Source: a virus. Taken from it: a stretch of DNA of 64,000 bases. Under the pieces are notes generated by a model that had not been told where the DNA came from, did not search any database, and was given only the letters and a program-made list of their open reading frames with translations. Numbering within the stretch: position 1 is the stretch's first letter; every line of letters begins with the position of its first letter. Positions 2,364 through 49,400 of this stretch are shown in pieces. Location: IMG/VR virus record IMGVR_UViG_3300045971_000247, positions 1 through 64,000 of that record; one strand, given 5' to 3'. The translations under genes and the position numbers were made by a program.

Positions 2364-3509
2364 TCACTGGGCCACGTAGCAGGACAGCACGCCGAAGTCT
2401 TCGACGGTGTTCGCTTCGTAGATGGTCCCGAACTTCGGCTTCAAGAACCCGAGAATCTTGCCGATGGCGATGCCCTGGCTGTTCTCGTAGTCGAAGCCCT
2501 TCTCGTTCCAGTCCGGGGCGCCGATGTCGGCCATGCCGAGCGCCTGGGCGCCGCAGAACAGGATCTGCGAACCGGGCAAGTTGAAGCCAGCGCCGTACAT
2601 GCTCGTGCCGCTGATACCGGCCGACACGTTCGGCACGTGCCGGAACTCGTGCAGGTAGATGCCGTCGATCTTGACGCTCGACCCGGTGAACAAGGCGTCG
2701 TTCTTGTTCGTCTGCTGCGAGTGCCGCAGGTTCAGGTTGTAGTCGTTGTCGGCCTTCAGCTTGGCGAACGCCTGCGGGGTCAGGAACGCGTGGTACGTCT
2801 CTTCGCCGCCTTCACCGGTGACGCCGCGGATGTAGCGGTCCTTGGCATAGGCCTTCAGCTGCACGAAGGTCTGCCACGCCGGGAAGTCGCTGGTGGCAGC
2901 GGCGCCGGTGTTGACGATGGAGGTCTGGGTGTTGCTGCCCGAGGCCGAGTCCTTCAGCACCTTGTTGACGTTGTCCCAGCGCAGCATGCGCTTGGTGGAC
3001 GGGGCCGTCACGTCGTTGGCGAACTCCAGGTTGGCCAGATCGCTGCCCACCCGGGTCGAGCCGTTGGGGCGCGTACCGAAGGCCCGGCCGCCGAGGGCGC
3101 TGAAGGCCATCTGGTCGATGCGGTCGGCCAGCCAGTAGGCCAGCACGTCGCGGGAGTTGCCGCGGAATTCGACCACCGACTTCTGGTCGGCCATCTTGCC
3201 TTCGTGGCGGTTGGCGTGGCGCAGCTGGTCGATGCGGATGACCTGATCGAAGGTCTGCATCGCTTCTTCGTTGCCCTCCAGGGTCCGGTCGCCTGCGACA
3301 CCGTCACCGGTCAGGTCGGCCAGCAGCGTGATGACAGCGCGGGCGCCCTTCTCGGACTTCTTCAGTTCGGTGATGTGCTGGATCAGCGAGTTCGGGCCTT
3401 TGCCCAGGAACTTGTTGACGAAGGACATGTTGCGGGCCTGCTTCCACAGGTCCATCGACCAGACGGTCTTTTGCTCGGACGTGAGCAGCGAGAAATTGGT
3501 AACAGCCAT
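2364..3509 (-). CDS. Major capsid protein, N4-gp56/DUF4043-like (381 aa)
   Basis: This should be the shell subunit of the phage head. An N-terminal KFLGKGPNSLIQ segment, a central VVEFRGNSRDVLAYWLADRIDQ region with an arginine/histidine-rich R-H-A-N-R-H-E patch before it, and a G-A-Q-A-L-G-x-A C-terminal stretch are typical of the DUF4043/N4-gp56 capsid family with an HK97-type fold. The length fits that family. The ATG at 3509 has an AGGAG site upstream. It is preceded by its own leader with a candidate promoter, and the upstream sigma gene is cut off by a strong terminator, so capsid is probably transcribed separately at high level. Confidence 0.85.
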   Translation of the reverse strand: MAVTNFSLLTSEQKTVWSMDLWKQARNMSFVNKFLGKGPNSLIQHITELKKSEKGARAVITLLADLTGDGVAGDRTLEGNEEAMQTFDQVIRIDQLRHANRHEGKMADQKSVVEFRGNSRDVLAYWLADRIDQMAFSALGGRAFGTRPNGSTRVGSDLANLEFANDVTAPSTKRMLRWDNVNKVLKDSASGSNTQTSIVNTGAAATSDFPAWQTFVQLKAYAKDRYIRGVTGEGGEETYHAFLTPQAFAKLKADNDYNLNLRHSQQTNKNDALFTGSSVKIDGIYLHEFRHVPNVSAGISGTSMYGAGFNLPGSQILFCGAQALGMADIGAPDWNEKGFDYENSQGIAIGKILGFLKPKFGTIYEANTVEDFGVLSCYVAQ

Positions 3510-3547: not shown

Positions 3548-3670
3548 TCCGAATGTCGCTTCGGCTACGCGAGGGAGGCTTGACCGTGCCTCTGACGGGC
3601 GCACCGTGTCGTGGTGCCTACGAGTACCATGCTATCGAAAACGACTGCGTGATAGCCGCAGTGTATCGAC

Positions 3671-3698
3671 AAAAAAGAGCCGGCGCAAGGCCGGCTCT
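3671..3698 (-). terminator. Rho-independent terminator after the sigma gene
   Basis: A perfect 9-bp GC-rich stem (3676-3684 with 3690-3698), 5-nt loop, then six T on the minus strand. It ends the transcript carrying the lysis and sigma genes before the capsid gene starts. The gap 3510-3735 otherwise holds only the capsid leader. Confidence 0.85.
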
Positions 3699-3735
3699 AA
3701 AAAGACTGAGTACAGTCTTGTGAGGAGCTTAGATG

Positions 3736-4590
3736 TCAACCCCAACGAACGCCTGCGAAGGCCAACACATCCGCCGACGGTGAGGGCGTAGTCAGTTCTG
3801 GTGCTGGTTCCGGTCGGCGTTTCCCTGGTCGTGTTTGCGCCTGGACGTACTCGACGATTCGCCTTTCGGCCTGTCCGAGCAGCTGACTGATTCGGGCGCC
3901 GCTCACGCCGTGGATCTGGGCGATTTCGTTCTGCGTCAGGTCGTCGTCGTAGGTCAAACTCCAGACGCTGCGCTCACGTTCAGAGAGGGCTTCGAGCGCC
4001 TGCTCGATCCATACGACGAGGTATGCAAGATCCAGCCGTTCAGCCGGCGGGTCGCCGCGTGTACCGGCACCATGCCGGTCGAGGTAGTCCTCGACGTCCT
4101 CGCCCTCGTAATCCTCCATGTCGACCAAGCTCGCCGCTTGCGCCTTCAGCGCCAAGGCGTGGTAGTCCGGCAGCGGCAACCCCATCTCAGCTGCGACCTC
4201 GCTGTCGCTGGCCGATCTGCCCAGGCGTTGTTCTGCGGCCCGCATGGCCGCCTCGATCCGACGGCCGTCACGCCGGTCTCCGCGGCTCATCCAGTCGTTG
4301 CCCCGCAACTCGTCGAGCATGGCGCCGCGGATGCGCTGGGTGGCGAAGGTCTCGAACTGCACCCCCTGGGCCGCATCGAAGCGCGACAACGCGTCGCTCA
4401 GGCCGATCATGCCCACCTGGATGAGGTCGTCGAGTTCGACGTTGGCGGGCAGTTTGGCAATCATCTGGTTGGCTAGGCGCCGGACCAGCGGTCGGTGCTG
4501 TTTCAGCAGAGCGCCCAGCTGGTCACGGCCAAGAACAGCGCCGTCGCCGCCGCCATCAGTTCTGGCAACAGCGGCAGGCGCCCGGTCCAT
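3736..4590 (-). CDS. FliA-like (sigma-28 type) RNA polymerase sigma factor (284 aa)
   Basis: This would bind host RNA polymerase core and direct it to specific promoters. Region 2 is clear: HRPLVRRLANQMIAKLPANV, then DDLIQVGMIGLSDAL, a FETFATQRIRGAMLDE segment and a following basic stretch, very close to FliA order. Region 3 (GRSASDSEVAAEMGLPLPDY) and region 4 (ALSERERSVWSL, then LTQNEIAQIHGVSGARISQL, a helix-turn-helix) follow. It is ~45 residues longer than typical FliA because of an Ala/Gly-rich N-terminus and a Pro-rich C-terminus. It sits at the end of the lysis genes and is followed by a strong terminator. Late-gene control is the natural inference; a host-derived cargo gene cannot be excluded. 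Confidence 0.88.
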   Translation of the reverse strand: MDRAPAAVARTDGGGDGAVLGRDQLGALLKQHRPLVRRLANQMIAKLPANVELDDLIQVGMIGLSDALSRFDAAQGVQFETFATQRIRGAMLDELRGNDWMSRGDRRDGRRIEAAMRAAEQRLGRSASDSEVAAEMGLPLPDYHALALKAQAASLVDMEDYEGEDVEDYLDRHGAGTRGDPPAERLDLAYLVVWIEQALEALSERERSVWSLTYDDDLTQNEIAQIHGVSGARISQLLGQAERRIVEYVQAQTRPGKRRPEPAPELTTPSPSADVLAFAGVRWG

Positions 4591-4594
4591 CGTG

Positions 4595-4861
4595 TCACCG
4601 CAGCACGGGCTGGAATGGCAGCATGTCTGGCGCGGTGATCTGCCGGTGCACTGCGGCTGCCGCAGCGGCCACGGTCGTCACGGCGTCGACCAGAGCCTGA
4701 CTGTAGGCCCCGACCGGGATGGCTGCGATCTGCGCTTCCAGGGCGGCCACGGCTGTTTGCAGTGTGTCGATCGTGGATTGCAGGCCGGCGATCAGCGGGA
4801 TGTCGGCGTTGAGGGTCGTGGTGGCAACGCTCAGGGCAGCGATCATTTCGGCTTCGGTCAT
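4595..4861 (-). CDS. Small coiled-coil protein of unknown function (88 aa)
   Basis: An alanine/threonine-rich, probably fully helical protein with heptad-like spacing (DTLQTAVAALEAQIAAI) and no membrane segment. It lies 4 nt before the sigma gene and 10 nt after the secreted-protein gene, so it is co-transcribed with both. A partner of the sigma factor or of the lysis proteins is possible, but nothing in the sequence decides this. Confidence 0.55.
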   Translation of the reverse strand: MTEAEMIAALSVATTTLNADIPLIAGLQSTIDTLQTAVAALEAQIAAIPVGAYSQALVDAVTTVAAAAAAVHRQITAPDMLPFQPVLR

Positions 4862-4871
4862 GGTCCGTCCT

Positions 4872-5540
4872 TTATTGAGTGCAGACGGTCATCGTCTGCG
4901 GGGTGGCAGCACCGGTGAAAGTGCAATAGGTGCGCGATCCGATCACCGTCTTGGCCGTGCAGTCGCACGCCACGCCGAGGCGAACGGTGCCGGCCAGCCC
5001 ACCGAGGGCGCCGGCGCGGACAGTGAATGCAAGCGTGCTGGCCGTCTTCCAAGCTGGCGCTGCGGGCGGCTGCGGCCGACCGGCCCAAATAGTCGGCCAC
5101 GCTGGGCACCACACGGGGGTCATGCTCGGGTCAGCCAGAGGCTTGGTGACGTATAGGGCGGACAGCCGCGCGATGTCGACAGCGCTGGGCTGCGGGCCGG
5201 CTTTCAGGAAGTCCAGCAGCATGGACGGCGTGGCCGCCGATGCGGCGAGAGCGCCCCACTGCGGCAGCCACGTCTGGTCTGCTTGCTGGCAGTAGCGCCA
5301 GGACGTGATCCCTGCGGAGTTGGCGCTGTACTGAACCGGTGTCGCAGCGGCGCACGTTGGTGCGATGGGGGCCACGTAGTCCCGGTAGACGTAGTAGCCA
5401 TTGGTCGGCTGGACGTTGCAGGGGTTTGACAGCGCGGGCGCGCTCGCTGCCTGGGCCATGACCGACAGCGGCAGCGCCACCAGCAGCAGGACGATGAGGA
5501 TCACCAGCAGGATCGGCAGGTAGGTGTGCTTGCGGTACAT
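4872..5540 (-). CDS. Secreted Cys-containing protein in the lysis cassette (222 aa)
   Basis: The chosen start (ATG at 5540) gives MYRKHTYLPILLVILIVLLL, a basic N-region with a long hydrophobic core and a probable cleavage site near AQA-A at about residues 31-34. The mature part has several cysteines and many Pro/Trp/Tyr residues, consistent with a disulfide-bonded periplasmic or envelope protein. An open frame continues upstream of this start, but that extension overlaps the holin gene and lacks a signal sequence. It lies 2 nt after the holin gene. It could be a spanin-like or envelope-acting factor; the family is not recognised. Confidence 0.65.
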   Translation of the reverse strand: MYRKHTYLPILLVILIVLLLVALPLSVMAQAASAPALSNPCNVQPTNGYYVYRDYVAPIAPTCAAATPVQYSANSAGITSWRYCQQADQTWLPQWGALAASAATPSMLLDFLKAGPQPSAVDIARLSALYVTKPLADPSMTPVWCPAWPTIWAGRPQPPAAPAWKTASTLAFTVRAGALGGLAGTVRLGVACDCTAKTVIGSRTYCTFTGAATPQTMTVCTQ

Positions 5541-5542
5541 GG

Positions 5543-6064
5543 TCAAGCCTTCGGGCGCGTGGTGAAACTGTCGATGCCCTTGCCGATCTGCCGCAGGCCC
5601 GAATAGGCCCATGGGAGCGCCAGCAAGATGCCAAGAATCGTGATGTCGGGTACCGGTCGCGTGAACACGTAGGCGATGCCAGCGGCCAGCCCGACCCAAG
5701 CCTGCAATGGCCGCGTCCAGCGCACCAGTCGGTCTTCAGCGTTGTCACCAGAGCGGACGGTCTTGCCGGTCTCCTCCTGCTCGGCCTGCAGATCCTTGAG
5801 CCGCAGTTCTTCCATCGCGCGGATGTGCTCGCGGATGCTGGCGTCGTTCTGCACCGCGAGTTCGCGCAGCTTCAGCATGGTCCCCGGGTCGGTCTGTAGG
5901 GCCGATAGGGCTTTGTCGGGGAGCCCTTCGCCGGTGGCCCCGGTAACGAGGGAGACCCCCGCAGCGACAGCGCCGGGGATGTTGCCGGTCAGCAGCGAGC
6001 CGACCAGCGCTGCGCCGGTGCCGGCGTTGTTTGAGAGCCAGTCGCCTACTGTCTTCCAGTCCAT
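5543..6064 (-). CDS. Holin, GTA-type three-transmembrane family (173 aa)
   Basis: It should form the membrane lesion that releases or activates the endolysin. The sequence has a Gly/Ala-rich N-terminal segment (TGAALVGSLLTGNIPGAVAA), a charged helical middle (~residues 70-110), then RWTRPLQAWVGLAAGIAYVF and a last hydrophobic segment (ITILGILLALPWAY). The W-x-RP motif before the membrane segments is characteristic of the 3TM holin family (GTA_holin_3TM). It sits directly beside the endolysin, with 1 nt between them. Confidence 0.75.
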   Translation of the reverse strand: MDWKTVGDWLSNNAGTGAALVGSLLTGNIPGAVAAGVSLVTGATGEGLPDKALSALQTDPGTMLKLRELAVQNDASIREHIRAMEELRLKDLQAEQEETGKTVRSGDNAEDRLVRWTRPLQAWVGLAAGIAYVFTRPVPDITILGILLALPWAYSGLRQIGKGIDSFTTRPKA

Positions 6065-6065
6065 G

Positions 6066-6539
6066 TCACACCTCCGTTAGCGTCTGCGCGGCCCGTCGAA
6101 TCCACCCCCGGCCGAAGCGCGCCCAGCGGGCGTCGTCGATGTCGGTGTAGTCGCACAGGCGCGCCGCGGTGAACCGGAAAAGCACGCGCTGCCACGGAGC
6201 AGACTGCAGGGCTTGCAGCGTGAGCGGCCCGAGGATGCCGTCCTCTGTCTCGCCGACGCCGTGCTGCAGCGCCTTGATCGCGGCCGTCACGCCCTGGTTC
6301 ACGCTCATGTCAAACAGCGGGTATTTGAGCTGCTCCGGCGCCGCATCACAGCCGGCCGGGCCCCAGTAGTCGCGGCGGTAAATCTCCTTTGCGCGATCCA
6401 GCGTGAGAGAGGGGATGTCCTCCCCTGGATGGGCGCGCTTGGAGATTCCAAAACGGGTGGCGCCTCCGGGATCAAGGGGATCGTTCGTGTACGAACCCTC
6501 GCTGCCGACGACGCGCCTGAAAGCTTCGTCGAAGTTCAT
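6066..6539 (-). CDS. Endolysin, glycoside hydrolase family 108-like muramidase (157 aa)
   Basis: It should cleave the glycan chain of peptidoglycan at lysis. Residues ~11-34 contain VGSEGSYTNDPLDPGGAT followed by RFGIS, the family hallmark, with Glu14 the likely catalytic acid. The middle DMSVNQG segment and C-terminal FGRGWIRRA fit the GH108/PG-binding layout. The start at 6539 overlaps the stop of the upstream membrane-protein gene as ATGA, which favours it over the in-frame upstream extension. No signal peptide is visible, so export would need the holin. Confidence 0.85.
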   Translation of the reverse strand: MNFDEAFRRVVGSEGSYTNDPLDPGGATRFGISKRAHPGEDIPSLTLDRAKEIYRRDYWGPAGCDAAPEQLKYPLFDMSVNQGVTAAIKALQHGVGETEDGILGPLTLQALQSAPWQRVLFRFTAARLCDYTDIDDARWARFGRGWIRRAAQTLTEV

Positions 6540-6823
6540 GGCAGCGCCCCGGCGTACATCACGACCGACATCACGACGCCCGGCGCTGTCGTAGCGGCTG
6601 CGTCCCACACGTCGACCGTGTGCATCCCAGGAGACTGCTGGTTGTCACGCCAGTCGCAGAATTCTTTCGTGATGCCGGCGACGAGCCCGCACAGTGCCGG
6701 CGTTGCGACGATGCCGGCGAACGGCACGACGCCGAACACGACGAGGACGAGATAGACAGCGCACCCGCACAGCGCGGCGCAGAGGCCGGCGACGAAGTGC
6801 TGGAGTTTGTCGGTGATGGTCAT
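6536..6823 (-). CDS. Small membrane protein of the lysis cassette (95 aa)
   Basis: It begins DKLQHFVAGL followed by a long hydrophobic run (CAALCGCAVYLVLVVFGVV) and a second hydrophobic segment (residues ~38-52). It then has KEFCDWRDNQQSPGMHTVDV, resembling the KE-x-x-D...PGHT-x-D-x-x-D-A motif of small VanZ-like phage/bacterial membrane proteins, and a last hydrophobic stretch. Its stop overlaps the endolysin start. A second holin or a lysis regulator is plausible. Confidence 0.6.
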   Translation of the reverse strand: MTITDKLQHFVAGLCAALCGCAVYLVLVVFGVVPFAGIVATPALCGLVAGITKEFCDWRDNQQSPGMHTVDVWDAAATTAPGVVMSVVMYAGALP

Positions 6824-6837
6824 GGCGTTCCTTTCGG

Positions 6838-7833
6838 TTAAATCACATCGCCGCGCATCCGCGCCAGCTGGTCTTCGCTCAGCGCACTGAAGTCCTTGTA
6901 GGACATCTTCAGCACGTCCTTGGCGCTGATGACGCCGCCATCCTTGTCGCTGTCCATGCCGACGCGGGACACCGACGGCGGGGTCTTCTTCGAAGCGTCC
7001 AGTGCCTTCTCGACAGCGCCCTTCTTCCGCTCGGCGGCCACGTCCTTCGCATCCACCTTCGGCGTGACGGTCGTGGCGACCTCCTGCTTCGTCGTCTCGG
7101 CGCCCAGCAGCTTCTTGACGGCCTTCTGGAGCGCGTCGGTGGGCGTCATGCCCTTGCGCTCGTACGTCACCTTCAGGTCGGCCACGTCGGTCAGCATCTC
7201 GCTGTCGAAGTCGCCGTGGTCCGGGTTCAGCACCGGGTACGCCTGCTCGACGCGCTCCAGGCTGATGTTGTAGCGGGCGCGCTCGGTGGCGCGGGCTTCG
7301 GCTTCGGCGATCTTGAAGTCGCTGCGCTGCTCGTTCATCTGCCGCTCGGCCCGGCGGATGTCGCGCATCAGATCCGTGGCCTTGTCGACCTCGCCGTCGG
7401 CCAGGAGCTTCGTGTACTCCTTCTCCATGCCCAAGACCTTCGCCTCCAGCGCGGTCAGGTCGGCGTTGATGTCGGCCACCTGTTTGCCGGACTGGAACTT
7501 GGCAAGCTCGCGCTCGGCCTCCTTGCGGGCCTCGCGCTCCTTGTTCAGGAGGGCTTCGTGGCGGTCCAGAGGGATGCGCTTGGGCGACTTCTTCTTGTCG
7601 TCCTTGGCCTCGTCCTTCTCTTCCTTCTCTTCGTCGGCGTCGTCAGTTTTGTCCTCGACCTTCTCTTCGGCCTTGTCCTCGACCTTCTCGTCGGCCTTGT
7701 CCTCGACCTTCTCGTCGGCGTCGTCCGTCGGCGTGAAGTCGTCGCCGCGGTCGACAGCACCGCCGCCCGTGTTCTCGACGATGCCGGGGCTCAGCGCCCA
7801 GGGGAAGGCCTTCAGCAGCCAGTGGAGTTTCAT
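6838..7833 (-). CDS. Scaffolding protein (331 aa)
   Basis: It should guide capsid shell assembly. After a short N-terminus there is an extremely acidic/basic low-complexity region with tandem EKVEDKA-type hexa/heptads (~residues 40-85). A long coiled-coil rich in E/K/R/A follows (~95-190), then a C-terminal charged domain ending in DVLKMSYKDFSALSEDQLA. The gene overlaps the portal stop by 4 nt. Position after portal and helical composition fit phage scaffolds; the lysis cassette and sigma gene, rather than capsid, follow it. Confidence 0.78.
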   Translation of the reverse strand: MKLHWLLKAFPWALSPGIVENTGGGAVDRGDDFTPTDDADEKVEDKADEKVEDKAEEKVEDKTDDADEEKEEKDEAKDDKKKSPKRIPLDRHEALLNKEREARKEAERELAKFQSGKQVADINADLTALEAKVLGMEKEYTKLLADGEVDKATDLMRDIRRAERQMNEQRSDFKIAEAEARATERARYNISLERVEQAYPVLNPDHGDFDSEMLTDVADLKVTYERKGMTPTDALQKAVKKLLGAETTKQEVATTVTPKVDAKDVAAERKKGAVEKALDASKKTPPSVSRVGMDSDKDGGVISAKDVLKMSYKDFSALSEDQLARMRGDVI

Positions 7834-22582: not shown

Positions 22583-23587
22583 ATGAAACCCTCCACCATT
22601 GCCAACGTCCTGCCCGAACTCATCAACGACGGCATCAGCGTCCTCGTCCACGGCAAAGCCGGCATCGGCAAGTCGTCGGTCGTCAAGCAGGTCACCAAGA
22701 CCATGAAGCGCGACCTCTACGACTTGCGGCTCAGCCAGCTGAGCGAAGTCGACCTCCGCGGCCTGCCGATGCACGACCCGAAGACCAAGCAGGCCGTCTG
22801 GTACCCGCCGAACTTCCTGCCCAAGCCTGACGCCAAGCCCTCTGTCCTGTTCCTGGACGAAATCAATAAGGCCCACCCTGCCGTCCTGTCTGCGGCCTAC
22901 CAGCTGATCCTGGACCGCCGGCTGGGCGACTACCGCCTCCCCGACAACTGCGGCCTCATCGCCGCCGGCAACACGGTCAGCGACCGCGGCGACATCCACA
23001 CCATCCCCGCACCGCTGAACAACCGCTTCATCCACATCGACTTCGAACTCGACCCCGAGGACTGGCAGCGCCAAGCCAGCGCAGACGACGTGACCCCCGC
23101 CATCCGTGCCTACCACCGGCTCAAAGGCGGCGCCGCGCTGCACGTGTTCGACGCGGCTATCAACCCGCGCGCATTCCCAACGCCGCGCAGCTGGTACACG
23201 GTCGACAAGATTCACAAGAACAAGAAGTACACCGCCAGCGAGCGCGTGCAGCTGGTCGCCGGCACGATCGGCGAGGGCGAGTCGGCCGCGTTCCACACGT
23301 TCCTCAACGAACTGACGAACATGCCCGACATCGACAGCATCCTGCTGAACCCGAAAGAGGCCAAGCTGCCGGGCTCCCAGTCGGTGATGCACACCGTCGT
23401 GACGACGCTGGTCGACAAGTGCCGCGCTGCGAACTACGCCAAGCTGATGGTCTACATCGAGCGGCTTCAAACCGAGATGCAGGTCGTCTTCAACCGGCAC
23501 GTGGTCATCAAGGACCACAACATCACCTCACGCAAGGAGTACATAGATTGGTGCCTGAAGAACCAAGCGGTGTTCGGTGTGATCTGA
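22583..23587 (+). CDS. MoxR/AAA_5-type ATPase (334 aa)
   Basis: An AAA+ chaperone-like ATPase. Walker A is HGKAGIGKSS (Lys30), Walker B is SVLFLDEINKA (~residues 87-97), with a sensor LIAAGN and a later NPRAFPTPRSW segment. MoxR proteins usually act with a VWA-domain partner; here a metallopeptidase/VWA protein is encoded at 24882 and DUF3150 at 23847. The set probably remodels a protein complex during replication or host takeover. Confidence 0.8.
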   Translation: MKPSTIANVLPELINDGISVLVHGKAGIGKSSVVKQVTKTMKRDLYDLRLSQLSEVDLRGLPMHDPKTKQAVWYPPNFLPKPDAKPSVLFLDEINKAHPAVLSAAYQLILDRRLGDYRLPDNCGLIAAGNTVSDRGDIHTIPAPLNNRFIHIDFELDPEDWQRQASADDVTPAIRAYHRLKGGAALHVFDAAINPRAFPTPRSWYTVDKIHKNKKYTASERVQLVAGTIGEGESAAFHTFLNELTNMPDIDSILLNPKEAKLPGSQSVMHTVVTTLVDKCRAANYAKLMVYIERLQTEMQVVFNRHVVIKDHNITSRKEYIDWCLKNQAVFGVI

Positions 23588-23829
23588 AGCTGCCTGAGTG
23601 GCTGGGGCGGACGCCGTTCAACGACATGATGAGCTACGCCCCAGGACTCAGCAAAGGCCACCCTACCTGGAGCACAACGGCCCACTGGGCCTGCTGGGCC
23701 GGAGCCGCCTACGGCTGGTACCACTCGCCCTTCGACACCCACACCATGGCCCTCGCCGGCAACAGACGAGCCCTCGTAATCATGCGGCGGTTCTACACCG
23801 AACTCATGACCGCGAGACTTACCAAGTAG
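23551..23829 (+). CDS. Unrecognised small protein (92 aa), non-ATG start
   Basis: The frame overlaps the end of the MoxR gene. AAGGAG at 23533-23538 places the start at TTG 23548 or GTG 23551; the GTG is used here. The protein has LPEWLGRTPFNDMMSYAPGL, a Trp/Ala-rich middle and a hydrophobic/basic end. Lies within the MoxR-VWA operon; role unknown. Confidence 0.5.
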   Translation: MPEEPSGVRCDLKLPEWLGRTPFNDMMSYAPGLSKGHPTWSTTAHWACWAGAAYGWYHSPFDTHTMALAGNRRALVIMRRFYTELMTARLTK

Positions 23830-23846
23830 CTCGACAAGGACTCACC

Positions 23847-24689
23847 ATGCTCCACGAAAAAGCCCTCCTCGTGAATCTCTCCATCTCCCGATGGGGCGCA
23901 CAGAAGACCGACAAGAAGGTCACCAAGGAAGTAACCCGCAGTCATGGGGCAACCGACGACTCCGGCGACTTCCGCAAGTCCCTCGTCGACAAGACCCACC
24001 TCAAGGCCCTGACCGCGTCGTCCAGCGCTCTGCGCGCGTTCAACTACAAGCTCACCCTGCCGTGGGACGACGACGGCCGGCGCATCCTGCCCTCCAAGGC
24101 CTTCGCCGCCTACACCGACGGCTACCGCGAACTGCGGTTGGCCGACGAGAAGCTCGTGCGCGACTTCATCTCTCTCTACCCGAACCTCGTGGCCACAGCC
24201 CGGAACCGGCTCGGCTCTCTGTACGACCCGGCCGACTTCCCTGATCCGAAAACGATCAAAGACAAGTTCGGCCTGAAGCTGAGCATGGAGAACATCCCCA
24301 ACGCCGACGACTTCCGCGTGAACGTCGGCGACGAAGCCGCGGCCATGATCCGCGAACAGATCACGGCCGAGAACGACGCGAAATTCCAGTCGGCGATGAA
24401 GCACTGCTACGAGCGCGTGCAGAAGATGGTCAGCCACATCAGCACGACGCTGCACCAAGAAGACCCGCGCATCTTCGACAGTCTGGTCAACAACGCCCTC
24501 GATCTGGTCGACTGCCTGCCGATGCTCAACCTCGCCGACGACCCGCTGCTCGAAGACTTGCGGACAGATCTGAAGGCCATGCTGCCGCACCCCGACGCGC
24601 TGCGCACCAGTGAGCACACGCGGGCCAAGACCGCCGACGCGGCCGACGCGATCATCGCCAAGATGGCTGCCTATGGTCGCGTGGTCTAA
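23847..24689 (+). CDS. DUF3150-like protein of the MoxR-VWA module (280 aa)
   Basis: The N-terminus (LLVNLSISRWGAQKTDKKVT) followed by a short DFRKSLVDKTHLKAL stretch and the YKLTLPWDDDGRRILPSKAF segment fit DUF3150, a family often encoded between MoxR and VWA genes in phages. The rest is helical and charged. ATG at 23847 is chosen as it starts at the conserved N-terminus. Role as an adaptor between ATPase and VWA partner is inference. Confidence 0.7.
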   Translation: MLHEKALLVNLSISRWGAQKTDKKVTKEVTRSHGATDDSGDFRKSLVDKTHLKALTASSSALRAFNYKLTLPWDDDGRRILPSKAFAAYTDGYRELRLADEKLVRDFISLYPNLVATARNRLGSLYDPADFPDPKTIKDKFGLKLSMENIPNADDFRVNVGDEAAAMIREQITAENDAKFQSAMKHCYERVQKMVSHISTTLHQEDPRIFDSLVNNALDLVDCLPMLNLADDPLLEDLRTDLKAMLPHPDALRTSEHTRAKTADAADAIIAKMAAYGRVV

Positions 24690-24885
24690 GCAACTCGACG
24701 CCGCCATCCAGCGCGCCCTGTGGGATCTGGGCCGCAGCAACTGGGCCTGGGACGCCACCTCGAAGCGCTACGAGTCACGCACCCCCGAAGAACGCGAACG
24801 CTGGTGGACTCACGTCGCCAGCGCCAACACAACAAGCTGGCGCGAACTCCGCGTCAAGGTCGTCACCATGAGCCTCACCAAATGA
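24673..24885 (+). CDS. Small protein in the MoxR-VWA module (70 aa)
   Basis: ATG at 24673 lies inside the end of the DUF3150 gene. Trp-rich sequence (QRALWDLGRSNWAWDATSKR) and a WREL segment near the end. Its stop overlaps the next start (ATGA). No family recognised. Confidence 0.5.
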   Translation: MVAWSKQLDAAIQRALWDLGRSNWAWDATSKRYESRTPEERERWWTHVASANTTSWRELRVKVVTMSLTK

Positions 24886-25991
24886 ACAAAGAAGCACACG
24901 ACAAGATGGTCCGCGGCCGCGTCGCCCTCTACATCAAGGACGGCTTCTACGGCCCGCTCTCGATGCGCTTCCTGATGAAGGAGCGCAAGTCCTGCAAGAC
25001 CGCGCGCATCAGCCACACGACGATCTTCTACAACCCGGACTTCATCGACAAGCTGGAAGAGCACCTGATGCCAAGCCTGTTCGCCCACGAAGTGCAGCAC
25101 TGCATGCTCAACCACATCGACCGGTGCGGTGGCCGGAATCCAAGGAAGTGGAACCAAGCCGGCGATTACGTCATCAACGCCAACCTGAAGCGCGACGGCT
25201 ACGAAATCGGCGAGTCGTGGCTGTTCAACCAAGCCTACAGCGGCATGTCCACCGACGAGATTTACAACCTGCTGCCCGACCAGGACGACGGCGATGAATC
25301 CGGCGATGGTGATGGCGCCGGCGACCCGCTCGACGAGATGGAGCCCGGCGACCCGAAGGACATCGAGGAGAAGGAACTGGAGTGGAAGATCGCCACGATC
25401 CAGGCCGCCGAAGCTGCCAAGCTCGCCGGCTGCATGCCAGCCTCCATGGAGCGGCTCGTCGAAAAGCTCACAACAAACCAAGTGTCTTGGCGCGAACGCC
25501 TGCGCCGGTTCGCCACCGAGCACGCCAAGGACGACTCCTGCTGGTCACGGCCTGACCGCCGCATGCTGTCGCTCGGGTACATCTTCCCGAGCCTCTACAG
25601 CGAGAATGTCGGGCTCATCGTCAACGACATCGACACCAGCGGCTCGATCAATCAGGCCACGCTCGACACCTTCGGCGCTGAAATCACGGCCATCAAGCAT
25701 CAGGTGCGGCCGCAGAAGATGGTGAACATCTACTGCGACTCGGCCATCAACAAGGTCGATGAGTTCGGCGAGTTCGATGAGCCGGACTACATCATGTGCG
25801 GCGGTGGCGGCACAGACTTCCGGCCACCGTTTGCGTACGTGGCCGAGAAGGGGCTGAAACCGACGTGCATGATCTACCTCACCGACGGCTACGGCCCATT
25901 CCCGACTGAGCCGCCGCCCTACCCTGTCATGTGGGTGATGACGACGGACGTCGTTGCCCCGTTTGGCGAAACGATCAGGATCAACACATGA
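24882..25991 (+). CDS. DUF2201-type putative metallopeptidase with VWA-like domain (369 aa)
   Basis: N-terminal metallopeptidase-like domain with LFAHEVQHCMLNH (His69-Glu70, His73 and a later His), a zinc-binding HExxH. An acidic linker (~residues 125-160) follows, then a VWA-like domain with a DTSGS metal-site motif (IVNDIDTSGSINQ) and GGGGTDFRPPF. This pairing with a MoxR ATPase is a known two-component arrangement (ATPase plus VWA). The zinc site looks intact, so real protease activity is possible. Confidence 0.8.
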   Translation: MNKEAHDKMVRGRVALYIKDGFYGPLSMRFLMKERKSCKTARISHTTIFYNPDFIDKLEEHLMPSLFAHEVQHCMLNHIDRCGGRNPRKWNQAGDYVINANLKRDGYEIGESWLFNQAYSGMSTDEIYNLLPDQDDGDESGDGDGAGDPLDEMEPGDPKDIEEKELEWKIATIQAAEAAKLAGCMPASMERLVEKLTTNQVSWRERLRRFATEHAKDDSCWSRPDRRMLSLGYIFPSLYSENVGLIVNDIDTSGSINQATLDTFGAEITAIKHQVRPQKMVNIYCDSAINKVDEFGEFDEPDYIMCGGGGTDFRPPFAYVAEKGLKPTCMIYLTDGYGPFPTEPPPYPVMWVMTTDVVAPFGETIRINT

Positions 25992-40530: not shown

Positions 40531-41435
40531 AGGTCTGGACCCGGCGGCCTGACCCCGCTGCCGGCCACAGCTGGGGTCAGGCCGTCATGGCGTGGCTCGA
40601 GGTCGAGACCCGCAGTGACAGCGAACTGCTGTCGCTGGCCAAGTTCGGCAAGGTCTTCCCCGACCGGCCGCTGAGCGAGGTCACCCGGGACGACGTGGAC
40701 AAGGCGCTGTCCTTCTGCAAGACGGCCGGCACCTACATGCGCTACCGCACCATGATCGCTGCCATCCTGAACCTCGCCAAGACCGCCGGCTGGCTGCCCA
40801 GCCCGCCGCTGCTGGCCGTCAGGCGGGACAAGAAGCGCAAGAAAAGGGACTGGCTGACCCATGAGCAGTGGGACGCCCTTTTGACCCAGCTGCCGGCCCA
40901 CCTAAAGGCTCCAGCGACCTTCGCCGTGGAGACCGGCCTGCGGCAGGCGAACGTCCTGGGGCTGAGATGGGAGCGCGTCGACCTAGACCGAAGGATGGTA
41001 TGGGTGGAGGGCGAAGACGCCAAGGCCGGCGACGCCATCCCGGTGCCCCTGAACGACGCCGCGCTGGCTGTGCTGGTGGCCCAGAAGACGCTGCCGCCCT
41101 ACAAGCCCAAGCGCGGGGTCCAGCGCCCCACCAGCGCGTTCGTTTTCACCTTCCGGGGCTCACCCATCGCCGACATCAAAACGGCTTTCATGGCGGCCTG
41201 TGTGAGGGCTGAGGTGGGCGCCTACGTCAGCGAGGACGGGCAGAGCCACTACGAGGGCTTCACGTGGCACGGACTGCGTCACACGTGGGCCACTTGGCAT
41301 GCCCGAAACGGCACGCCCATGGAGGTGCTGCAAAAGCTGGGTGGGTGGAGCGACCCGCGGATGGTGGCGAACTACGCCCATCACGCCCCTGGTTTCATCG
41401 CTGGCTACGCCGGCAACACAAGGAAGAAAGAATGA
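40395..41435 (+). CDS. int: Tyrosine site-specific recombinase, integrase (346 aa)
   Basis: Integrates the phage at attB. Start ATG 40395 after GGAGAAAG. Catalytic residues: Arg183 (ETGLRQANVLGLRW), His292-x-x-Arg295 (WHGLRHTWATW), Trp318 (LGGWSDP) and Tyr327 (NYAHH). N-terminal arm-binding part ~1-150. It lies ~0.9 kb from the tRNA-derived attP candidate. Confidence 0.92.
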   Translation: MPLYKQAGSEVWWVSISEPGQPRLRRSTGTADRAAAEKRAREIQIEVWTRRPDPAAGHSWGQAVMAWLEVETRSDSELLSLAKFGKVFPDRPLSEVTRDDVDKALSFCKTAGTYMRYRTMIAAILNLAKTAGWLPSPPLLAVRRDKKRKKRDWLTHEQWDALLTQLPAHLKAPATFAVETGLRQANVLGLRWERVDLDRRMVWVEGEDAKAGDAIPVPLNDAALAVLVAQKTLPPYKPKRGVQRPTSAFVFTFRGSPIADIKTAFMAACVRAEVGAYVSEDGQSHYEGFTWHGLRHTWATWHARNGTPMEVLQKLGGWSDPRMVANYAHHAPGFIAGYAGNTRKKE

Positions 41436-42285: not shown

Positions 42286-42345
42286 TTCAGGCTGTTCTAA
42301 ACCAGATCCCACTTCGAACAAGTTGCCCTGTTCACCTATGAGAAC

Positions 42346-42394
42346 TGGTAGGCGCGAATGGACTCGAACCATCGACCCCCACCATGTCAAGGTG
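42346..42394 (-). other. attP: Candidate attP: 3' half of a tRNA-Val(GAC) gene
   Basis: On the minus strand the 49 nt read CACC, TTGACAT anticodon loop (GAC), GGTG, variable loop, GGTTCGAGTCC T-arm, CGCGCCT acceptor strand, A discriminator and CCA. The 5' half (D-arm and acceptor 5' strand) is missing: the DNA upstream cannot make a D-arm. A phage carrying exactly the anticodon-to-CCA part of a tRNA is the classic attP signature for tRNA-integrating phages. Integrase and excisionase lie close by. The gap 42286-42441 holds nothing else I recognise except a GC hairpin at ~42421-42440. Confidence 0.8.
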
Positions 42395-43489: not shown

Positions 43490-46400
43490 TCAGTCAGCGA
43501 CTTCCCGGATGTGGCTGGCCGTGCCGCCCAGCATCCGCAGCCCAGGCACAGCGTCGATCACGTTCTTGCCCAGGTCAGCCGGGTGCGTCACCAAGTTGAT
43601 CGCCTGCTCGACCGTCGGCCCGAACAGGCTGAACGGGTCGCGCATCGCATCAGCGCCCAGCTGGAACTTGCCGGCCAGCCCGCCGCGGCTCGCACCGTGC
43701 TCGATCCAGTCGGCTGCGTTCCAGGTCTTCATGTAGTCAGGCAGCGAGCCGGCGTTCGTCGCCATGCCCTTGACCACGTCGCTGACGATCATGATCGGGA
43801 TGACGCTGGACAGCGCGCCGATCGGGTTCATGTTGCCCTGCCGCGCCTCGTTCCACGCCCGCTTCAGGATGACGTGGTGCATCGCGTACGTGAACTGCTT
43901 CAGGTGGTAGAAGACGGCGTAGTGTGGGTCACTGGCCCGGCTCGGGCGCAGGCCGGCGTTGGGCGACAGCACCGCGCCCTCGACCCAGCGCACGACGGCG
44001 TTGTGGATGCGCTCGGCGTCCTTCGTGGCCTTCGCCATGACCTGAGCCCGCGCCGCCTCGTCCATGCCCTCTGTCGTCCGTATCTGGGCCAGGACGTTCC
44101 GGTCCCAGACCAGCTTGCCGTCGTTGTCCAGTGTGATGTCCGCCGGCTTCAGGCCAAGCTCGGCCAGCCAGCGGGCGCTGTGCTCCTTGTCGGGCAGCGC
44201 CTTGTGCCGCTCCAGGAACTGCGTGGCGAACTTCGTGGCCGTCACCCGCATGCTGCGGTCCCAGGCTGTCAGGCCGTTGACCATGAACAGCTTGCGGCCG
44301 ATGTTGCGCGCCGCGTCGGTCATGAACTCGCTGGTGTGGGCCTTGCCTACCTGCTCCAGGAACATGTGGCTGTCGACGACGCCCATGGCTTCAGCCATGT
44401 TCTCCAGCGGTGAGACCTGACGCGGGCCGGGCATGTCGCTGGCGTTGCGCTTCCAGTTGGCGAACACGTCCCTGAGACCGTTGACGAAGCCCTCGTAGGC
44501 TGCGCCCAGGCCGCCCTCGTCCGTGCGCGCGGCAAGGCCAGCGACGTCACCGAAGGCAGCGAACAGGCTCAGCGGCAGCAGGCGCAGGTTCTGGTAGGCG
44601 ATCAGGGCGCTGGACAGCTTGCGCGCGCCGTCGCTGATGTCGCCGCCCAGCGAGCCCTCCATGGCCGCCACGGCGTTGCGCGCGTTCCCCATGTGCCGGT
44701 CGACGACGACCTTGGCCTCGTCGCCCTTGACGCCCTTCTCGGCCAGATGGTCGTACATCTCCTGCTCGGCCGGGCCATAGGTCGTGCGGGGTTCGAGCTT
44801 GCCGGTGCTGGGGTCGAGTTCGAGGTTGCCCTTCATGACCAGGGCCTTCTTCAGGCCCTGCCCGCCTTCACCGAACTTGTTCGTGAACTCGGCCGCGCGC
44901 ACGCCCTGCTGGAAGTAGCGGGACAGAGCGCCCACCAGATCCTTCTCCAGGAAGCCCTTGATGTCGCCGCTCTCCAGCCACTTGAAGCTGCGCTCTTTGC
45001 TCGACGCAAAGAACGGCTTGAAGATCACGTCGCCCATGTCGGACTCGGCGTCCAGGGCGTTGTCGTCTACGCCGCCGCGATCGACCAGCGACCGGTGCAT
45101 GGCGTCGATCAGATCCTCTTTGCTCTTGCGATCAGCGGCCGGCAGTTTGACGTTGATCGCCGTGAGCATGTTGCCCAGCACCTTGTCGTACTTCGACTGG
45201 TTCAGCATGGCGACGAACTTCGCCTTGCCGTCGCCTTCGATCAGCTTGGACACGTCCCAGATCCGAGGGAAATAGTTGGAGATGTACTCCAGCTTCATGC
45301 CGCGGCCCGTGGCGTACTGGTGGTAGCGCTCCAGCAGGTTGTGGACGTCGTCGTAGGCTTTGCGCTGGAGGTCGAGCTTCAGCGTGTCGCGTGCCTTCGG
45401 GTCTTCGGCCTGGAGCGCTTCGATGACCGCCAGCCGGTCCTTGTCGTTGAGCTTGGAGCGCGTACCGATGACGCGGTCCATCTGGTTCGAGAACTTGCGC
45501 ATCATCGTCGTGCGCGCGTTGATGAAGCCCGGCTCGTGCTGGCCCGCGGCCGCGTCGCCCGGGTTTGAGAAGAACTTCGCGCCCAGGCTGCGGATCGTCG
45601 CGCTCATCGCCTCCTTGTCGAGCACGTCGTGCGCCGGGCTGAGTTCGTAGTGGAGCCGCTGGGTCAGCTTGTCCCACTTCAGCTTCACGTCCTCGTTCCA
45701 GGACTCGCGGTCGGTGGTCTTCTTGATCGCCTTCGACGCCGCGTCGGGCTCGGCCAGCTTGCCCTCGTGGAACGCCGTCATGATGTCCAGGGCGATTTCG
45801 CTCTCGCGCACCATGCCCAGCACCGTGCGCAGCGCCCGGCGGAACTTGTCGAACAGAGTAGTGGCCGGCTTGTCCACGTCGAGTGCGCCAGCGGCCCAGA
45901 ACTGGAAAGCGTAGGCGACGCGCTCTTCGGGGTCACGGGCCATGGCTTCGAGGGCGGCCGCCTCGTCGCGCAACAGGCCCTTCACGCGCTCGTAGATTTC
46001 GCCGCTGCCTAGCACGTTCTTGAGCTTGGCCGCGGCCTCGGGGTTGTGCTCGACGAGGCGGCTGAAGAAGGCGTGCAGCGCCTCGTGGTGGGCGACGGTC
46101 TCCAGACCCGGGCCTTTGCCCAGCGCGAGCTTGATGAGGTTCTCAGCACTGACCCACTCTCCGGCTGCGTCGAAGTCCTTGAGGAACTGAACCTTGACCT
46201 TCGGTCCGAGCACCTTGGCGATGTAGGCCTTGGCCTTGGCCATGGCCTCGTCGCTCGGCGCGGCGTTGGCCTGGGCCTGGATGCCGGCGGGCGTGGCCTG
46301 CTCGTTGAGCTTGCGGCCCTCGGTGGCGGGTGCCGGTGCAGGCGCACCCGCGGGCTCAGCCTTCGGCTTCACCTCTGGTGCCGGCAGCAGCTTCGTCAGC

Positions 46401-49400
46401 GCCTCCTTCAAGCCCGGCGATGTCAGCTTCTCGTCGCCCGTCAGCAGGCGGGCCAGCGCCACCCTGTTGTGCTGGGCGATCTCGCTCGGGTCGGCCGACA
46501 GGATCGCGTCAGCCACCTTGCCGCGCCACTCGCGCAATGTGACCTTGGCCTTCGCCTTGTCGCGCGCCAGGGCGACGATGGCGTTCGAGTTCTTCGGGGT
46601 CAGGATGTGGGCCAGCGGGGCAGCGTAGAACTTGCCGCCGGCCAGCTGATCCTTGCCTTCAGCACGTGGGTTCGCCTTCGGTTCGACCGGGCGGCTCAGG
46701 CTGTCGATCATCTGCTGAGTGCGCGTGAACGCTCCGCGCGGATCACCGTCGCTGTGGAACTGCCCGAGTACCTGACCGGCAATCGCCGCAGCGCGGCTCA
46801 TGGCGTTCGTCGGCGTCAGGGTCTGGATCTTGTCGAGGCCCTGGTTCAGCGCCGACGTGAGGTTGCGCTGGTCGGTGCGGTCGGTGGGCACGCCGTCGGT
46901 CTGCTCGGGCTCGGCGTCCAGCTGAGTGCGGCCGGTGTCCTCGCTGCGGCGGCTCATCGTTTCGGGGGCAGCGACGGTGCCAGACACGCGCCGTACCTTC
47001 GGGTCTTTGTTCTTGCCGGTGAACGGATCGGTGTCAGGGTTCTGGACGGCGTCGGCATTGGCGTTGATCGCCGACCGCAGCGCGGTATCAGACGACGGGG
47101 CTGCGGGCTCATCCCAGTAGCGGGCACCCAGCGCAGGCTTGGCCGCGGGGACGCCCGGCAGATCAGGCTGACCGTTCTCAGGCATCAGCCGGTAGTTTGG
47201 GATGCCGAACGGGTACTCCGCTTTGTTGAGCGGGTCGCGCTTCGCTTCCTTGCCCTGGTCGAGCAGTTCCTCAGCGTCCGTGTTGTTGACCGGCTTGTCT
47301 TCAGCCCTCAGCTGGTCGATCGCCACAGCCTTGTGCTGGCGCTCGGCCGCGAGCTTGGCTTGCTTTGCACGGTCGTGGTCGCTTAACGTGGCTTCGGTCG
47401 CCGCGTCGCGCTTGCTCTTCACGACCCCAGCCTCGGCCTTGGCCTTCGTCTGAGCGTCGATGTCCGCCTGCGTCTTGCGGCCCAGCTTCAGCGACGGCGG
47501 GAACCCGTTCTCGAATGACTCCTTCTCGCCCTTGGCGTTCAGCATGTAGGGCGCGCCCTCCATGTGCCCGTCGGCCAGCAGCGCGCCGATGCCCTCCATG
47601 AGCTTGTCGCGGTAGGTGTGGGCGCCGTCTGCTTCGCCGTTGTTCCGTCCGGGCTGGTTCTCTGTCACCCAGGCCACGAGGTCGCTCGCCGCGATGGCAG
47701 CGACGCCGTCCTTTGCGGTGGCCTGCGGCGACTTGAAGCGGATCAGGTTCATGTCCGCCTGCGTCGCCTTCGGGTCGTCGCTCACCTTCGGGTCCGTGCT
47801 CTTGTTGAGCAGCGCCGCGCCGTGGCGGATCATCTTCACGACCTCGGCCACGTTCAGGCGCAGCTGATCCTTCTCGGCCATCTGCTCGGCGCTGACCAGG
47901 AAGCGCGTAGAGAAATAGGCGTCGGCCAGCTTGCCGAGGTCGTCCGCGCCGCTGACATCGACGCCCATTCTTTCTGCGAGCTTCGACACGACCTCACGGC
48001 GTTCTTCGGTGAGGCGCTCCAGAGCGGCAGAGCGCAGGCCTGCCTTCGGCACAGCCTGGGGCTGACCCTTCACCGGCTGCGGTGCGGCCTCGTCCTTCAG
48101 GGCGCGGATCTTCCGGTCGAGCGTGCTGATCTGTTGGAGGGTGTCGTCACCTTCGCCCAGAACCTTGTCCTTGCGCAGGTACTGGCGCAGCAGCGTGACG
48201 CGGCGCGACGACGCGACGCTGCGGTCGTCCATCACCTCCTTGGCCGACATGGTGCGGATGCGGTAGCTGCCCGTGCCCAGCATGCCTTTGTGCTGGTCCG
48301 CGCTCTCAAGCTCATTGGGCAGCAGACTTTCCTTGATGGTGCGGCCGTCGGCGGGCCGCTTGGTCTCCGTCTCGACGCCTTCCTCGTCGCCGCCCAGCAC
48401 CTTGTAGACCCGCTCCTGCATCCGTGCCAACGAGTTCGTTCCGTCCTGGTCCTTCTTGTCCGCACTGATGAGTGTCGGCAAATTACCGGCGTCGTTCTTC
48501 GTGAATGGGTGCGGGCCACTCAGGCTATCGCGGGCGTTCGTCTCGTGCCGGAACATGTAGAGCTTGGCGCCGGGCGCCTTCTCGATGTTCTTCTTCGCGC
48601 CGTCGAGTTCCCAGTTGTCGGGCTCACTCAGATCGTCGCTCTCGCCCGGCGTCGTGGTCTCCGCGCCGTCCTTCTCGTCCGTGTCCGCGGGCTTGTGCTC
48701 GACGGGCTTACGCGGCTCGACCTTGCCCTCCATCTTGGCGTAGGCCTTGGTCATCGCCTCGAACGCAGGGGCGCCCAGCAGCGACTTGAACTCGATGGCC
48801 TTGCGCGCATCGTCGGCCCTGCCCAGGTGCTGCTCGAAGTGGTGGAGCAGCGACTCGGCCACATGGTCGTCCGTGATGTCCAGGCCTGCCTTGTAGAGCT
48901 TGGCCTTCGCCTCGACCGGGATCGCAGCCACCAGCTTGTGCGCAGCCTCAGTGCGCGGCACCGCGTTGCTGGTGCTCCAGGCCTTGCGGTCTTCGGAGCC
49001 CTTCAGCATCTGCTGGAAGCGCTGCATGACGGGCGTCTTCTCGGCGCCCAGCGCCGTCGCCACCTTGGCAATCGCGGCCTGGGCCTGAGCGCCACCGTAG
49101 AGGTCGACCGCTTGGCCGGCCAGATCGCGCATCTGACCAGCAGTGCGGACGCCTGTGCCCGTGTCCTTCGACTGAGCCAGGGTCGCCAGTTGAGCGCCGA
49201 TGTCGCGAGCCCGTGCGCGCAGGTTCGTGAAGTAACCCTTGTCGTTCGACTCGTACTTTGCCTTCTCGGGGACAGCGTCTTCGAGGATGCCGCCGGCCAG
49301 CGAGGCGCGCGGGTCTTCACCCTGCTCGTTGAGCTTTCGGTCCTTGTAGGCGTCCACCAGCTTCTGGCGCTGGGCCGGCGAGCCGTCGCCCGTGATGTAG

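Follow-up and report, generated by a model that had tools for sequence, protein, structure and literature searches.

An intact FliA-class sigma factor gene in the lysis cassette of a probably temperate, KPP25-like phage

Positions 3736-4590, on the minus strand of a 64,000-nucleotide stretch of phage DNA (the window, which is bases 1-64000 of a 66,312-base IMG/VR record), encode an intact sigma factor of the FliA (sigma-28) class. The gene is the last one in a lysis cassette that lies between the scaffold and major capsid protein (MCP) genes. Our tentative reading, held at slightly less than even confidence, is that the product is a captured and remodelled host sigma-28 that is made with the late lysis genes and acts on the host rather than on phage late promoters.

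The class assignment made in a preliminary description of this DNA was borne out by curated family models and by structure. The 284-residue protein, read from an ATG start, matches Pfam Sigma70_r2 (6.7e-18), r3 (2.4e-10) and r4 (3e-12), laid out as region 2 at residues 28-100, region 3 at residues 110-167 and region 4 at residues 198-245. Region 1.1 is absent, and helices are predicted in all three domains. Both curated cut-offs are passed, with 218.4 bits for NCBIfam FliA PRK06986 (cut-off 201) and 214.6 bits for FliA_WhiG TIGR02479 (cut-off 189.6); the nearest solved structures are FliA/sigma-28 (9wsm, 6pmi), with which fold comparison agrees, and the gene holds the sole sigma-70 region 4 match in the whole 66.3-kb record. 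Core-binding residues, which were checked for decay, are intact: within a host-identical block at residues 42-108 (nt 4267-4467, minus strand), there are zero deviations at host-conserved columns. Residues D93 and R103 are invariant and align with D81 and R91 of Escherichia coli FliA, which we take to be core-binding/-10-reading residues of region 2; the E. coli reference sequence used in some of the alignments agrees with the 6pmi PDB alignment over the aligned part. In the predicted model, regions 2, 3 and 4 are well folded (pLDDT about 90), and the linker and tails, including a new C-terminal tail at residues 246-284, are disordered. Given the confidence of its predicted fold, region 4 looks remodelled rather than decayed. 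Flagellar and chemotaxis genes, a context that is usual but not defining for FliA proteins, are absent from the phage locus.

The genes around the sigma factor lie on the minus strand, in the order portal, scaffold-position gene, holin candidate, endolysin, ORFs of 173, 222 and 88 residues, sigma gene, terminator and MCP leader. The scaffold-position protein (6838-7833) has no family match and is named by its place between portal and MCP. The holin candidate (6536-6823), with a weak match to Phage_holin_3_1, begins 14 nt beyond the scaffold stop, and is followed by an endolysin with Glyco_hydro_108 (GH108) and PG-binding domains (6066-6608, with a likelier start at 6539). Next come a 173-residue ORF (5543-6064; PHROG 1544, weak similarity to GTA holin 3TM), a 222-residue ORF (4872-5540, its start picked because it lies next to the stop of the ORF before it), whose product has a hydrophobic N-terminus, is predicted to be exported or membrane-anchored and lacks a family match, and an 88-residue ORF (4595-4861). 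Since only 4 nt separate the TGA of this last ORF from the sigma ATG, the two genes are probably translationally coupled. No separate promoter was found for the sigma gene. Directly after it stands an intrinsic terminator (3676-3698, minus strand), then a candidate sigma70-like -10 hexamer of the MCP leader, TACACT (3660-3665, minus strand), which was read from an alignment, and the MCP gene itself (2364-3509; PHROG 334, 4.3e-73). The location between lysis genes and capsid that had been described is therefore correct, with the holin candidate and GH108 endolysin on one side and the MCP on the other. The codon usage score of the sigma gene is lower than that of the phage structural genes, the gene being left uncalled, and its GC3 is 0.76 vs 0.88-0.93; these values are as expected of recent cargo, and the gene could also be dispensable.

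The empty form of the site is seen in a sibling, L009, with 82-86% nucleotide identity. There, the same terminator, conserved in position, stands about 20 bp past the scaffold stop, and after it come a -10-like hexamer (TATACT) and the MCP leader; the 3.14-kb lysis and sigma cassette (3697-6837, minus strand) is thus a clean insertion relative to L009, and the sigma gene is an accessory gene present here and absent at a clean site in a close sibling. Among about 160 related loci, no FliA gene turned up, nor did a Sigma70_r2 search of the records of 49 relatives, many of them fragments, give one, and this contig is the only FliA carrier that was found among the relatives. Across the phage family, the scaffold-MCP slot is hypervariable, ranging from 139 to 4537 bp, and is a modular hot spot. 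Siblings have lysis genes in it, namely a lysozyme in L053-L059, L055 and L135 and an M15 peptidase in L132. Viewed over loci such as L059, L055, L135, L132 and L020, the slot swaps lysozyme, M15 and GH108 cassettes as well as HNH-like and other cargo. What had been called an unusual location is, then, unusual for the sigma gene; finding lysis genes between scaffold and MCP is not out of the ordinary in the family. Two siblings have small ECF-like sigma candidates directly before the MCP gene (L017:6621-7115 and, for L011/L090, L090:16651-17160), in the same slot as the FliA gene of the window; they are 49% identical to each other, and their matches to TIGR02937 (E 4.6e-9 for L017 and 2.6e-5 for L011/L090) are both below the curated cut-off. 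In another relative (G034), a sigma-like ORF (L162:1207-1737, minus strand) immediately precedes an M15 peptidase endolysin gene and an Rz-like ORF.

Judged by its proteins, the phage is a KPP25-like podophage, with an MCP (56%), a TerL (46%) and a portal that are related to those of Pseudomonas phage KPP25. A tyrosine recombinase gene with a Phage_integrase match (40587-41435, plus strand) lies 0.9 kb from a 50-bp sequence match to the 3' end of tRNA-Val(GAC) (42345-42394, no strand assigned), which is a putative core and probable attP site. This copy has 96% identity to the tRNA-Val(GAC) 3' end of Burkholderiales, which was found in 135 of 150 sampled genomes of the order, the tRNA having been identified by ARAGORN. 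The integrase gene and the attP-like copy together point to a phage that is probably temperate and has its host in the Burkholderiales. Cultured KPP25-type phages, e.g. CRPAP1904, are described as lytic (PMC13340246). An Rfam search across the window gave no match. Among the other genes, a 2401-residue ORF (43490-50695, minus strand) without a Pfam match adjoins the tail-side genes and could encode a large virion protein. The early region at 22583-25991 (plus strand) holds a MoxR-like AAA ATPase followed by a DUF2201 metallopeptidase/VWA protein, which is unusual for a podophage, and the relative L165 also has an ORF similar to this ATPase.

The best 80 genome matches to the sigma factor are all Burkholderiales FliA-like genes, mostly from relatives of Rubrivivax, with identities up to 62%, and each of six host genomes checked has one FliA copy. 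No close homologue was found by a single-protein scan of IMG/VR, and no close FliA relative was found in cultured phages. The divergence from host FliA is distributed by domain. Based on a comparison with 80 host FliA proteins, region 2 is 94% identical to the hosts (host-host 92%), whereas region 3 is 47% (host-host 80%) and region 4 is 39% identical (host-host 95%). Within region 4, the -35 reading helix (residues 228-241) has 42% identity to hosts vs 96% between hosts, i.e., the helix of the lineage is not conserved, and the recognition helix residues R233, Q236, L237 and Q240 are retained. By its sequence, the altered helix makes the same specificity less probable and leaves membership of the FliA class, a matter of the whole-protein cut-offs, as it was. 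The phage protein departs from the hosts at 64 of the 177 columns that at least 90% of them conserve, with 0 of these departures falling within residues 42-108, and the phage tip branch is 0.015 in region 2 vs 1.55 in regions 3-4. A region 4 acquired from another, non-Burkholderiales sigma factor was considered and rejected, because a search with just regions 3-4 again puts Rubrivivax FliA at the top, at only 42%; the simplest reading is that the whole gene came from one source and that one half was remodelled. Codon identity at identical residues (0.67 vs 0.50, a difference that 2% of matched host pairs also show) and GC3 (0.91 vs 0.80, P=0.03) are only suggestive of a region 2 refreshed by recombination with host fliA. 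As for the prospect, also raised at the outset, that the gene was taken recently from a host and occurs in this isolate alone, the host FliA lineage and the sole carrier found among relatives fit it, but regions 3-4 have diverged far beyond any host FliA.

Promoter scans of the window covered sigma-28-type sites and the leader motifs AATCGAA and TACAAT. With the E. coli sigma-28 consensus, there were 0 sites at 11 or more of 12 positions and 2 sites at 10 (3.1 expected); with the host-lineage consensus, the best site scored 13/18, which is shuffle level, and no perfect GCCGATAA occurred. The host-lineage consensus gave 24 sites at 14/18 or better in host loci vs 0 in the reversed control, a result which, as the consensus was read from the same host loci, shows that the scan detects sites and is not an independent rate. 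AATCGAA and TACAAT, which had been proposed as promoter leaders, occur at chance frequency in the phage, and L009, which has no sigma gene, retains the terminator, the MCP promoter and the leader, AATCGAA included. A late sigma factor would be expected to have its own promoters ahead of the late genes of the phage, and these should be missing where the sigma gene is missing. This pattern was not found, and the earlier suggestion that host polymerase is redirected to phage late promoters is thus disfavoured, although the phage may have promoters of a class that such scans would miss.

An IMG/VR alignment scan gave 42 FliA-class loci. Hits of the FliA-alignment scan that proved to be chromosome were discarded, namely L298, an enterobacterial fliA-fliZ region, and L299-L303, with fliA at a provirus edge. 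FliA-class sigma genes sit beside endolysin genes in the otherwise unrelated phages L306, L309, L311, L305, L326 and L331. In a count that excluded the window, was confined to records in which one of three endolysin families was found (about 25 records gave no endolysin), used hand-made groups, and shares part of its data with the hypothesis (L306, L309 and L311 were seen first), the sigma gene was within 3 kb of an endolysin in 7 of 10 groups, where 2.3 were expected from the lengths of the contigs (P=0.0014). The near groups are L306, L309, L305, L311, L326/L327, L330 (on the opposite strand) and L331/L332/L335, and the far ones are L307, L308 and L356. When contigs over 40 kb were taken, the sigma gene was near an endolysin in three of five (P=0.02). 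In L309 and L311, most of region 3 is missing or shortened and the region 2 core is kept, and L306 is full-length. These data suggest that the sigma-lysis association is recurrent and apparently undescribed; within the open part of the literature, no paper describing FliA-type sigma factors in lysis cassettes was found. A broader proposition, to which we would assign a rather low probability, is that FliA-class sigmas are recurrent, independently acquired parts of Gram-negative lysis cassettes, with a host-type region 2, a rebuilt or deleted region 3 and an altered region 4, and that they would act independently of FlgM, resetting the transcription of flagellar or other host genes at about the time of lysis.

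Several other explanations of the gene can be weighed. A late-gene sigma factor, which would define a new phage-specific promoter class and switch on late genes in the way of lambda Q or T4 gp55, would accord with the changes in regions 3-4, which make a new -35 element possible, with a lysis-side location that is the position of a regulator, and with the closeness of FliA-class sigmas to endolysins in 7 of 10 other phage groups, including L309, where the sigma gene is directly before the holin and endolysin, the place that Q occupies in lambda. However, an unchanged region 2 should leave the -10 element GCCGATAA-like, and besides the lack of a perfect copy in the window and the chance frequency of the leader motifs, there is the absence of the gene from the related loci and the matching MCP terminator, promoter and leader of L009 (a fragment) with no sigma gene in the slot; we consider this explanation unlikely. 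Morons often adjoin lysis genes, and a plain extra FliA moron, boosting the flagellar regulon of the host, and with it motility and flagellar receptors, in the lysogen or in late infection with unaltered specificity, would suit both the host-identical region 2 and a temperate phage. Yet, with region 4 at 39% identity where hosts share 95%, the same -35 element or FlgM response is unlikely, and this explanation, too, is improbable.

The perfectly kept core-binding region, the diverged promoter-reading region 4 and a phage without target promoters might instead indicate a core-polymerase competitor or anti-sigma sponge, a protein that binds core or FlgM without productive use of promoters and, ahead of lysis, reduces the sigma70-dependent transcription of the host. 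But the helix-turn-helix of region 4 is predicted to be well folded and keeps R233, Q236, L237 and Q240, which suggests that DNA reading has been kept, and little weight is given to this option. Least probable is that the gene is decaying cargo or a metagenome-assembly chimera with host fliA reads. The sequence does come from a single metagenomic contig, and region 2 alone is host-like at the DNA level (80-92%, with the best hosts at 87-92%); nevertheless, the reading frame is open at both junctions, the flanking parts are about 55-60% identical in nucleotides and so offer little common sequence for an assembler to switch on, and regions 3-4 have the predicted form of a diverged but foldable sigma rather than of random drift.

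The favoured explanation, a remodelled host sigma-28 acting on the host, can be drawn as follows. A probably temperate KPP25-like podophage captured the flagellar sigma-28 gene (fliA) of a Rubrivivax-like Burkholderiales bacterium and carries it as the final gene of a mobile lysis cassette. Since the 14-nt gap between scaffold and holin genes is too small for a promoter and a terminator follows the sigma gene, the factor is probably made late, via read-through of the packaging/scaffold operon. Region 2, which would serve binding to core polymerase and the sigma-28 -10 element, may owe its identity with the hosts to purifying selection or to a recombination with host fliA after the capture, and regions 3 and 4, which would carry -35 recognition, the beta-flap contact and much of the FlgM-bound surface, have been remodelled. 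The product would form a holoenzyme with host RNA polymerase and would have lost normal FlgM control. FlgM contacts several regions of sigma-28 (reviewed in PMC3861889), and, in view of the heavy change in regions 3-4, escape from FlgM is plausible from where the changes fall. Because sigma-28 sites were not found in the phage, the leader motifs are at chance and L009 keeps the same leader, host promoters, or else the sigma balance and competition for core polymerase, would be the favoured target, late in infection or on induction. An effect on host motility genes, as the preliminary description had proposed, is possible.

The mosaic divergence and the lysis link appear to be the interesting parts of a phage-borne host sigma factor whose origin is, by sequence, clear. 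A frozen RNA polymerase/-10 half joined to a rebuilt -35/FlgM half amounts to a natural experiment on sigma retargeting or anti-sigma release, and, if the link to lysis cassettes holds across unrelated phages, it would be a so far unnamed tie between lysis and host transcription or motility. Lambda Q is a phage late regulator encoded beside the lysis genes, and the present case is similar in that a transcription factor gene adjoins a lysis cassette, but here the factor is a sigma factor, its gene comes last (3') in the cassette, and no matching late promoter was found. With the KPP25-like podophages (Kochitakasuvirus; KPP25, phiR18), the phage shares a related capsid, portal and terminase as well as gene order, whereas KPP25 has no annotated gene in the scaffold-MCP gap and has its endolysin elsewhere. 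Relative to FliA/sigma-28 itself (PRK06986, TIGR02479; PDB 6pmi, 9wsm, 1rp3), the protein has the three sigma domains in order and above cut-offs, with a region 2 that is indistinguishable from that of Burkholderiales FliA; it differs in regions 3-4, which are 39-47% identical to hosts that are mutually 80-95% identical, in its extra N- and C-terminal tails, and in its gene being in a lysis cassette and not a flagellar operon. Phage capture of host sigmas has so far been known mainly for sporulation sigmas, and the SigF/SigG-like factors of Bacillota phages are reported to be non-essential for lytic growth and able to change host expression (PMC9429907). As in those phages, a host developmental sigma appears to have been captured, but the one described here is of the flagellar class, comes with a probable Gram-negative host, is linked to lysis, and has diverged as a mosaic of domains.
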